Assembly (NCBI GenBank): GCA_021741245.1 | Contig: JAIOYF010000010.1 | Span: forward strand, 1 to 64,000 | Direction: 5' to 3' | Source of the DNA: Paracoccaceae bacterium | GTDB lineage: Bacteria; Pseudomonadota; Alphaproteobacteria; Rhodobacterales; Rhodobacteraceae | DNA: 64,000 nucleotides | Shown: positions 46,783-48,880 of the stretch, piece after piece | Position numbering within the stretch: the stretch's first letter is position 1 | How the letters are laid out: each line of letters opens with the position of its first letter | The notes under the pieces: generated by a model | Database searches by the model: none | What the model was told of the DNA's origin: nothing | Seen by the model: the letters and a program-made list of their open reading frames with translations, nothing else | Translations under genes and position numbers: made by a program

Positions 46783-46845
46783 GATGCCCCTTTTTTCGCC
46801 GGACTATCCGCAGCCCGTTGGCCAACCACAAGGCCAAAAAGAAAA

Positions 46846-47321
46846 CGGCGGCACCCAGGGAGGAGGAGGGGTGCCGCCGCATCTTGCGCGGTCCGGCCAG
46901 GGAGGAGGAGGGCCGGTGCGTATGTCCGGAGCCAACCCCAGGGAGGAGGAGGGGGCCGGTCCGTCGATCAGTCATGCCCCAGGGAGGAGGAGGGGGCACG
47001 GCCGAAGCGTTTGGGCCAATCGGCCCGAATTTTGGTGCGGCGACCCCAGGGAGGAGGAGAGGGGCCGCCGCTTTTCCGATCGGCTCAGGGAGGAGGAGGA
47101 GCCGCTCGAACTTATGTGGTCCGGGTGGACCGAATTTTATTGCGGCGACCCCGGGGAGGAGGATCGAGGCCGCCGCTTTTCCGAAAGACCCCAGGGAGGA
47201 GGAGGGGGCCTGTCGTATCACTTAGGAGCGTTTGCTCCGGAATAAAGTGCGTCGGCACCAGGGAGGAGGAAAAGTGCCGACGCTTTTGCTACAGACCCCT
47301 AGGGAGGAGGAACGGGGCCTC
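46846..47321 (-). ncRNA. array of ten CcsR/'cuckoo'-type sRNA hairpins with CCUCCUCCC loops
   Basis: On the minus strand ten hairpins follow the DUF1127 gene, each with CCUCCUCCC in the loop. On the plus strand GGGAGGAGG begins at 46858, 46900, 46941, 46982, 47049, 47088, 47154, 47194, 47261 and 47302. Each copy is enclosed by unrelated but complementary stems, for example 10-bp CGGCGGCACC/GGTGCCGCCG at 46846-46879 and 9-bp CGTCGGCAC/GTGCCGACG at 47250-47282. Three hairpins without the motif (47013-47026, 47118-47131, 47225-47238) separate groups of two to four. The arrangement after a DUF1127 gene matches the CcsR/cuckoo RNAs of Rhodobacter sphaeroides (four copies there), which are stress-induced and processed from the DUF1127 transcript. 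The most distal hairpin is followed by TTTTCTTTTT and also serves as terminator. Confidence 0.88.
47027..47180 (-). repeat. tandem ~105-bp duplication within the sRNA array
   Basis: The segment around 47027-47076 (CGAATTTTGGTGCGGCGACC ... CCGCCGCTTTTCCGA) recurs at about 47131-47181 with few changes, including the complete hairpin (47037-47071 and 47142-47176). This shows expansion of the array by duplication. Confidence 0.8.
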
Positions 47322-47331
47322 GCAAGAATTC

Positions 47332-47547
47332 TTACTTGCCGTATGCGGCTTCTATCGCCACGCGGGTGATCATCGTGCGGCTGAGGCCAAGGTCGGCCAA
47401 TTCCCGCGACGACAGGGCGCTCAATTCACGAACTGTCCGGTTGTAGACACGACGACGTTCCATCGCCACACGCAAGTCTTTGACAAGGCGGGCAAAACGG
47501 TCGGAAAAACTTCCGTGCGTCGTGCTGGTGCTGTTTACGTATGCCAT
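47332..47547 (-). CDS. DUF1127 small protein (CcaF1-like)
   Basis: A 71-residue basic protein ending in the DUF1127 domain: RTVRELSALSSRELADLGLS, then RTMITRVAIEAAYGK. Arg/Lys-rich DUF1127 proteins such as CcaF1 of Rhodobacter sphaeroides bind RNA and influence maturation of the downstream CcsR sRNAs and other transcripts. The stop lies 10 bp before the first CUCCUCCC hairpin, so mRNA and sRNAs are almost certainly co-transcribed. ATG 47547 gives the conserved length; a longer upstream frame is not family-like. Confidence 0.9.
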   Translation of the reverse strand: MAYVNSTSTTHGSFSDRFARLVKDLRVAMERRRVYNRTVRELSALSSRELADLGLSRTMITRVAIEAAYGK

Positions 47548-47654
47548 CGTCGTCTTGCCTTTGTGTCTGGTTCGGTCAGTGCATTCTGTTGCGCTGTTGA
47601 AACCAAGATGGGCCAAATGCTGCAGCTGCACAATACCTTTGAGGTGCAATGCTG

Positions 47655-47673
47655 CCATGCAGCAACTGCATGG
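47655..47673. promoter_or_regulatory. perfect palindrome upstream of the DUF1127/sRNA operon
   Basis: CCATGCAG-CAA-CTGCATGG is a perfect 8-bp inverted repeat in the 253-bp region between the divergent DUF1127 and mrp genes. It could be an operator or a hairpin in the leader. No clear RpoH-type promoter could be assigned by eye. Confidence 0.4.
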
Positions 47674-47800: not shown

Positions 47801-48880
47801 ATGACGATAACGCGCGAGGATGTGACGGCGGCATTGGCCGGAATCGGCCTGCCGGGCGGGGGCAATCTGGTCTCGCGCGATCTGATCAGGGCGCTTTCGG
47901 TTGAGGGCGGGGCCGTGCGCTTTGTGATCGAAGCGGCCAGTGCGGACGAGGCGCGCGGCTTGGCCTTTGTGCCCGCGCAGGCCGAGGCCGTGCTCAAGGC
48001 GCTGTCCGGCGTGACATCGGTGCAGGCGGTCTTGACCGCGCATGGACCTGCGGCCAAGGCCCCGGCGGATGCGCCCAGCCTCAAGATCGGGCAACATCCC
48101 GCTCCGCATCAGGGCGGGCCGCAAAAGCTTTCTGGCATTGACCGGATCATCGCGGTGGCCTCGGGCAAGGGCGGGGTTGGCAAATCGACGGTGTCTTCCA
48201 ACCTTGCGGTGGCCCTTGCGCGGCAGGGCCGCCGGGTGGGTCTGTTGGACGCCGACATCTATGGGCCAAGCCAGCCCCGGATGATGGGCGTGTCAAAGCG
48301 GCCTGCAAGCCCGGATGGCAAGCTGATCGAACCCTTGCGTGCGCATGGGGTGACGATGATGTCGATCGGCCTGATGCTCAAGGAAGACGAGGCCGTGATC
48401 TGGCGTGGGCCGATGATCATGGGAGCCTTGCAGCAGTTGTTGACGCATGTGGTCTGGGGGCCGCTGGACATTCTGATCATCGACCTGCCGCCGGGCACGG
48501 GGGATATTCAGCTGACGCTTGCGCAAAGGACGCAGTTGACGGGCGCGCTGGTGGTTTCAACACCGCAAGATGTGGCGCTTTTGGATGCGCGCAAGGCGCT
48601 GGACATGTTCGTCAAGCTGAAGGTCCCGGTTCTGGGGTTGATCGAGAATATGTCGACCTTTTGCTGCCCGAACTGTGGGTTTGAAACCCAGATCTTTGGC
48701 CATGGCGGCGTGCGGGCCGAGGCTGCGCGCCTTGACCTGCCGTTCCTTGGGGAATTGCCGCTGAGCCTTGCCGTGCGGCAGGCGGGCGATGCGGGCACCC
48801 CGATTGCGGCAGGGGACGGGCCAGAGGCGCAGGCCTATGCGCGGCTGGCCGCAGGGTTGATCGCAGGCGGCATGGCCTGA
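47801..48880 (+). CDS. Mrp/NBP35-family iron-sulfur carrier P-loop ATPase (ApbC)
   Basis: A 359-residue Mrp/ApbC protein that carries or transfers iron-sulfur clusters. The N-terminal MIP18-like (FeS assembly) domain (1-80) precedes the ATPase with the deviant Walker [11 protein letters not shown] (121-130), [14 protein letters not shown], and the C-terminal cluster-binding CxxC in [24 protein letters not shown] precedes the ATG. It stands alone, divergent from the DUF1127-sRNA operon and upstream of the long mraZ leader. Confidence 0.95.

Follow-up and report, generated by a model that had tools for sequence, protein, structure and literature searches.

The best described relatives of the locus analysed here are the small RNAs CcsR1-4 of Rhodobacter sphaeroides, which are processed out of the 3' UTR of ccaF1, with RNase E and CcaF1 itself involved (PMC8625941; here and throughout, papers are cited for the portions of their text that were available). 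The ccaF1-CcsR1-4 operon is described as having an RpoHI/RpoHII promoter and a Rho-independent terminator at its 3' end, and the association of DUF1127 genes with CcsR RNAs has been named the CIN1 locus (PMC10253847). Transcript RS0680a of R. sphaeroides carries the motif in each of its two stem loops, and the rhizobial SmelA075 and SmelA099 have three and four stem loops, respectively (PMC3927594). Diverse stems around an invariant loop are the hallmark of this cuckoo family (PMC3927594, PMC10746234).

We analysed a stretch of 64,000 nucleotides from a Paracoccaceae bacterium (positions 1 to 64,000 of contig JAIOYF010000010.1, hereafter the window), whose minus strand carries, from 47321 to 46846, exactly ten copies of CCTCCTCCC, as counted in the whole 64 kb. 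The array is the ortholog of the R. sphaeroides ccaF1-CcsR1-4 operon and is made up of five units, laid out as follows.

47335..47547, minus strand: ccaF1-like gene for a 71-aa DUF1127 protein, stop codon 47332-47334 (PF06568, E 3.4e-13)
47244..47330, minus strand: CcsR unit 1, two hairpins, motifs 47302-47310 and 47261-47269 (RF02791, 78.6 bits, gathering score 65.3; covariation in 22 orthologs)
47137..47221, minus strand: CcsR unit 2, motifs 47194-47202 and 47154-47162 (RF02791, 58.5 bits, below the gathering score; fold)
47032..47111, minus strand: CcsR unit 3, motifs 47088-47096 and 47049-47057 (RF02791, 60.6 bits, below the gathering score; fold)
46921..47008, minus strand: CcsR unit 4, motifs 46982-46990 and 46941-46949 (RF02791, 24.7 bits, E 0.00134; fold; block alignment)
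46840..46926, minus strand: CcsR unit 5, motifs 46900-46908 and 46858-46866 (RF02791, 50.3 bits, below the gathering score; sequence; fold)

Units 4 and 5 adjoin without a long spacer and form a four-loop terminal block. The original prediction had placed the array downstream of a DUF1127 gene, and this is borne out by the Pfam match at 47547-47332, with 21 nt between the stop codon and the first motif. The DUF1127 protein is 49-70% identical to those of the best 80 of at least 513 DUF1127 loci. Pfam further identifies a benE-like gene (PF03594) downstream of the array and a ParA/NUBPL-type gene with a divergent start at 47801. The reverse complement of the motif, GGGAGGAGG, occurs ten times in the window, always within 46858-47310, against a mean of 0.81 and a maximum of 4 in shuffled windows. 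Over the 4.2-Mb genome the motif is found 29 times, ten of them inside the array, and a backward control pattern 21 times, so that the 19 copies outside the array are at background level. The window shuffles and the genome-wide backward control rule out chance clustering of a GC-rich motif.

The Rfam CcsR1 consensus (RF02791) represents one 83-nt unit with two motif loops, and at relaxed thresholds the ten loops of the array are covered by five matches of this two-loop model (78.6, 60.6, 58.5, 50.3 and 24.7 bits). Only unit 1 passes the gathering score, and unit 4 lies far below it. The support that the original prediction had sought from covariance models was thus obtained above the cut-off for unit 1, with the other four units and all three matches of the cuckoo/alpha-r14 model (RF02344) in the array falling below. 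None of 14 control genomes has an RF02791 match above the cut-off, and eight have some match at E <= 1, so that only low E-values count; the five in the array are at or below 0.00134. Lying directly 3' of a ccaF1-type DUF1127 gene, as CcsR RNAs do, the array is a row of neighbouring hairpins whose CCUCCUCCC loops are invariant and whose stems vary but pair, the organization seen in cuckoo/CIN1 loci. Compared with CIN1 loci as described in the available text of PMC10253847, the arrangement of a short DUF1127 gene and CcsR-like sRNAs is alike and no departure was found. The earlier assignment to CcsR/cuckoo-type anti-Shine-Dalgarno RNAs near a ccaF1-like gene therefore holds.

With CcsR1-4 of R. 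sphaeroides the locus has in common two motif loops per unit, the DUF1127 gene upstream and a terminator at the end, here a predicted one; with Cereibacter, which is near R. sphaeroides, it shares the promoter element described below and, in C. azotoformans, also a benE-like gene downstream (judged by eye). It differs from CcsR1-4 in having five units rather than four and in lacking a long spacer between the last two. Such a four-loop end block, defined by at least three closing spacings of at most 46 nt, is present in 11 of the 15 arrays of the window's genus. The cuckoo/alpha-r14 RNAs NfeR1, SmelA075 and SmelA099 of S. meliloti have identical CCUCCUCCC loops and diverging stems, but these are three- or four-hairpin sRNAs, whereas the RNAs of the window sit in a DUF1127 3' UTR; NfeR1, unlike the window locus, is described with an RpoD-type promoter signature (PMC10746234).

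The genome has a second DUF1127 locus, on contig C21 (28349-28728 and 28889-29110, corresponding to L005 1201-1580 and 1741-1962), with two DUF1127 genes and the promoter element before each. Downstream of the first of these genes, four stretches that look hairpin-like by eye carry a shortened core, TCCTCCC, and the Rfam CcsR1 scores at this locus are weak (27.9 and 24.1 bits).

Every one of the ten CCUCCUCCC motifs of the array lies in a hairpin loop of the predicted fold, as had been proposed from the sequence. Folded singly, all ten hairpins form 9-12 bp with the motif unpaired, at energies of -14.4 to -25.7 kcal/mol, and the whole 496-nt array folded as one RNA reaches -236.1 kcal/mol whereas its shuffles average -181.1 kcal/mol (z -9.73). 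In this longer fold the ten motif loops and three further hairpins are present in both the minimum-energy and the centroid structure, and the base of hairpin 1 is taken up by a long-range helix. The summed hairpin energy is -193.9 kcal/mol for the native arms and averages -126.6 kcal/mol after random re-pairing of the arms, with the native value reached in 0 of 20000 permutations; five of the ten hairpins (1, 3, 4, 5 and 9) each have one to three of 18 arm swaps that fold equally well or better.

The stems and loops are conserved in related genomes. For the first unit we aligned 22 orthologs, the window plus 21 selected from the best 80 of at least 513 DUF1127 loci, and found 96.1% of stem cells paired (0 of 500 shuffles) and 12 of 21 pairs changed on both sides (0 of 500), with a number of further pair types that is not unusual (122 of 500 shuffles); part of loop 1 is misplaced in several rows of this alignment, and the stem columns seem unaffected. 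For the terminal block in eight genomes (the window and seven chosen ones) the corresponding values are 89.9% of cells paired (0 of 500 shuffles) and 6 of 45 pairs changed on both sides (1 of 500). Retention in relatives is only partial for hairpins 8 and 9, with helices 2 and 5 of the block paired in 75.0% and 70.2% of cells. Stem arms match their native partners and covary across relatives, and there is selection on RNA structure, as the original prediction had argued from stems of different sequence with preserved pairing.

This conservation bears on two other readings of the array. Mechanically called open reading frames span it on both strands (559 aa on the minus strand, 135-228 aa on the plus strand), and if these overlapping frames were real the motif would encode repeated peptides, in a coding or DNA-level tandem repeat. 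The motif spacings are frame-free, with 233, 213 and 203 in the three modulo-3 classes over 78 arrays including the window, and the stems pair and covary; we rejected this candidate and give it practically no credence. The array might instead serve in cis as a landing pad that binds CcaF1 or protects the 3' end of the ccaF1 mRNA, a sink or stabiliser from which released RNAs would be minor products. Strong stems, the last of them continuing into a U-run, would suit such a role, but the loop motif is kept while the stems drift, which indicates selection on base-pairing of the loop, and we consider a role of this kind very unlikely.

The last hairpin (number 10, with a 12-bp stem) continues, by reading and in the fold, into UUUUCUUUUU, and the two are predicted to form a structure that can double as an intrinsic terminator at the 3' end of the array. 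The terminator scan does not list hairpin 10 because it permits loops of 3-8 nt only. A run of at least four T after the last motif hairpin is present in only 33 of 78 arrays (77 loci from the best 80 of at least 513, plus the window), so that a terminator role of this hairpin is not general.

The original prediction had set the ten hairpins against the four CcsR RNAs of R. sphaeroides and called the array markedly expanded. The CcsR family and its place downstream of ccaF1 were rightly named; the comparison of numbers is wrong, because one CcsR RNA has two loops, so that the four R. sphaeroides RNAs amount to eight loops and the ten loops here to five units. The 80 named loci compared, the best of at least 513 DUF1127 loci, take in genomes of the window's genus as well as a pair of contigs from one strain; one or more exact motifs lie downstream in 79 of them, and two or more in 77. 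The number per locus in these 80 ranges from 0 to 16, with a mode of 10 (20 loci) and ten or more in 38, a count of exact motifs only that therefore misses degenerate loops. Among four named Cereibacter species within the best 80 of at least 513 loci, a sample outside which R. sphaeroides itself falls, there are 8 loops in C. azotoformans (titled Luteovulum azotoformans), C. johrii and C. ovatus and 12 in C. changlensis; one further genome (G051), with a DUF1127 protein that resembles that of C. azotoformans by eye, has 14 motifs. Tandem arrays are present in 15 of 16 genomes of the window's genus, the exception (G156) being 85% complete, and these hold 7 to 16 exact motifs, with at least ten in 10 of the 15, window included. 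With ten as the mode of the best 80 of at least 513 loci and arrays of 12-16 loops within the same genus, the claim of a marked expansion has to be withdrawn: the loop number is ordinary and the family is already known.

Across the Rhodobacteraceae (149 genomes from 148 genera), 106 genomes have at least one tandem motif pair. The highest genome totals of tandem pairs are 15, 15, 14 and 13, and the window's genome has six, totals that may span several places. With the backward control pattern, too, a few matches turn up, three of them in the window's own genome, and some single matches are probably due to chance (e.g. L049 and L093, without a DUF1127 gene upstream). Traces of tandem duplication are seen as an exactly repeated short one-hairpin segment in 16 of 78 arrays, and as an exactly repeated two-segment stretch in 2 of the 78 (77 of the best 80 of at least 513 loci, plus the window). 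Within the window's genus, L051 (G152) and L120 (Pseudotabrizicola sediminis), which have identical spacing and are probably the same genome, show a sixteen-loop array in which one-hairpin segments of 42-43 nt are repeated exactly in tandem, pointing to a recent local expansion. Another genome of the window's genus (G135, L064) has an array spacing equal to that of Pseudotabrizicola formosa (L110), from which the GTDB genus of the window would include Pseudotabrizicola.

We are highly confident that the window contains a ccaF1-CcsR operon, whose RNAs would be released from the 3' UTR and whose loops would pair with Shine-Dalgarno regions under stress. Going by the R. sphaeroides homolog, RNase E (together with CcaF1) would cleave the 3' UTR of the transcribed array between the units, and each freed RNA would present CCUCCUCCC in its loops for pairing with purine-rich Shine-Dalgarno regions. 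Under stress, when the operon would be induced, such pairing would make target mRNAs less translated or less stable; a translation block through Shine-Dalgarno pairing is plausible by homology. The multiple units would raise the dosage of the RNAs, and tandem duplication would alter the number of units.

CCUCC is the core of the anti-Shine-Dalgarno sequence. The motif includes it and each transcript would carry ten loops, both of which would be in keeping with the same RNAs acting as a general translation brake, mimics of the 16S rRNA anti-Shine-Dalgarno that bind Shine-Dalgarno sequences without much target choice. We regard so unselective an action as unlikely, given that most predicted targets of S. 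meliloti NfeR1, which has the same motif, are ABC transporter mRNAs (PMC10746234) and that published effects of CcsR in R. sphaeroides concern particular pathways (PMC8625941). A perfect GGGAGGAGG lies 3-10 nt before an ATG three times in the genome, and the backward control never does. Two of these sites open long frames, by eye TRAP-transporter permease-like and LacI-like (L107 and L108, position 1501), and the third opens just 17 codons. Because only two perfect sites precede long frames, target recognition would mostly have to rely on partial pairing.

Each of the three long spacers of the window's array contains a single hairpin of 5 bp with a 4-nt loop and without the motif.

47225..47238, minus strand: spacer hairpin 1, GGAGC-AAAC-GCUCC (fold; covariation in 14 first spacers)
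47118..47131, minus strand: spacer hairpin 2, GGUCC-ACCC-GGACC, just 3' of the AU-rich AAUAAAAUUC (fold, sequence)
47013..47026, minus strand: spacer hairpin 3, GGGCC-GAUU-GGCCC, just 3' of the AU-rich AAAAUUC (fold, sequence)

Taken from 71 loci, 195 distinct spacers of 60-92 nt fold with a median z of -2.2; stems with five or more pairs form in 171 of these, compared with 45% of shuffles. We aligned 14 first spacers out of 17 sources, with L124 and L132 excluded for their longer spacers and L142 without good reason. In this alignment 90.0% of cells are paired (0 of 500 shuffles), four of the five pairs show double-sided changes (1 of 500) and 4 of 500 shuffles attain the covariation score; further pair types are present in an ordinary number (468 of 500). 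A run of at least four A/T beginning within the first ten spacer bases is found in only 66 of the 195 spacers, so that the AU-rich signal is not universal. The motif-free spacer hairpins are conserved in relatives and may be a new feature of these arrays; we infer that they help define the processing sites.

Upstream of ccaF1 two further elements could be delineated on the minus strand.

47608..47634, minus strand: promoter element ATTGTGCANNTGCAGCA (47634-47618), then CCCAT (19-sequence alignment; exact copies in the genome)
47652..47662, minus strand: PhaR-type palindrome CTGCATGGCAG (47662-47652; exact match to the published R. sphaeroides site CTGCNNNGCAG)

In 19 aligned sequences, which include the genome's two other DUF1127 genes, ATTGTGCA and GCAGCA are invariant upstream of ccaF1. 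There are three exact copies of ATTGTGCANNTGCAGCA in the genome, all 5' of DUF1127 genes, and two more with one mismatch. Among the best 80 of at least 513 DUF1127 loci it is exact in 55 and within two mismatches in all 80. Exact copies with no DUF1127 gene found downstream exist in other genomes (e.g. L222, L229, L237, L249 and L254), so that outside its own genome the element is not exclusive to DUF1127 genes. Both RpoHI and RpoHII need TTG in the -35 region (PMC3441632), and the element contains a TTG compatible with this triplet. The promoter scan found no sigma-70-like promoter, which fits the use of another sigma factor.

The palindrome CTGCATGGCAG lies 28 bp upstream of ATTGTGCANNTGCAGCA and is identical to the site CTGCNNNGCAG quoted for R. 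sphaeroides PhaR, the polyhydroxybutyrate (PHB) regulator (PMC12542648). It is exact in 53 of the best 80 of at least 513 loci, 102-145 nt 5' of the start codon, a figure that measures conservation and not independent events because the 80 promoters share descent. With up to one mismatch it is present at this place of the ccaF1 promoter in 77 of the same best 80, or 78 with L176, where it lies elsewhere in the 220 nt, and the other two (L148 and L152) have it in a two-mismatch form only. The background in windows of the same loci is 8 of 1587 for the exact palindrome and a high 206 of 1587 within one mismatch. Before both DUF1127 genes of the second locus (C21) the palindrome is degenerate.

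The genome contains 14 copies of the extended palindrome GCTGCN3GCAGCA, against one of the backward control. One site lies 72 nt 5' of the phasin gene (phaP); another falls where the PHB depolymerase and synthase genes (phaZ/phaC) start divergently, within the longest possible depolymerase frame. Of 13 places inspected among the 14, two belong to the pha locus, one to ccaF1 and ten have no obvious link to PHB. Pfam supports the depolymerase, the synthase (on an overlapping locus) and PhaR, and the phasin is slightly short of its cut-off (22.4 against 24.9 bits). In a second element, ATTGTGCAN2TGCAGCA, the TGC and GCA halves are separated by four bases, against three in the published PhaR site.

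A PhaR match is found in 144 of 149 genomes, which leaves a co-occurrence test almost powerless. Of the five genomes without a PhaR match, G003, G090 and G136 (97-100% complete) and G033 (74%) lack the element, even with one mismatch allowed, upstream of any DUF1127 gene identified by a simple motif test; in the fifth, G098 (84% complete), palindrome and element are both exact, and a DUF1127 gene and four motifs are also present. In S. meliloti, PhaR represses the sRNA gene mmgR (PMC12542648). Our search of the available literature found no paper joining PhaR to CcaF1, and the matches for PhaR with CcsR1 were judged unrelated by title and start of abstract.

The conservation of the palindrome, its sites at pha genes and the mmgR precedent make control of ccaF1-CcsR by PhaR a reasonable hypothesis, a lead and not a result, and the palindrome in the ccaF1 promoter may be a new feature. 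We tentatively propose, as a possible but somewhat doubtful model, that PhaR, a PHB-granule-binding repressor, binds CTGCN3GCAG and perhaps also ATTGTGCAN2TGCAGCA and frees the operon as PHB accumulates, so that the anti-Shine-Dalgarno RNAs would link carbon storage to stress control, and that each repeat unit has in its spacer hairpin a third, conserved element that shapes the RNase E cuts.

The main value of this analysis is a corrected count, ten being the commonest loop number in the best 80 of at least 513 DUF1127 loci. The comparative set makes copy number, spacer hairpins and the promoter palindrome testable features of the family. If PhaR control proves true, the locus would provide a Rhodobacteraceae example beside the PhaR-mmgR pair of S. 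meliloti (PMC12542648).
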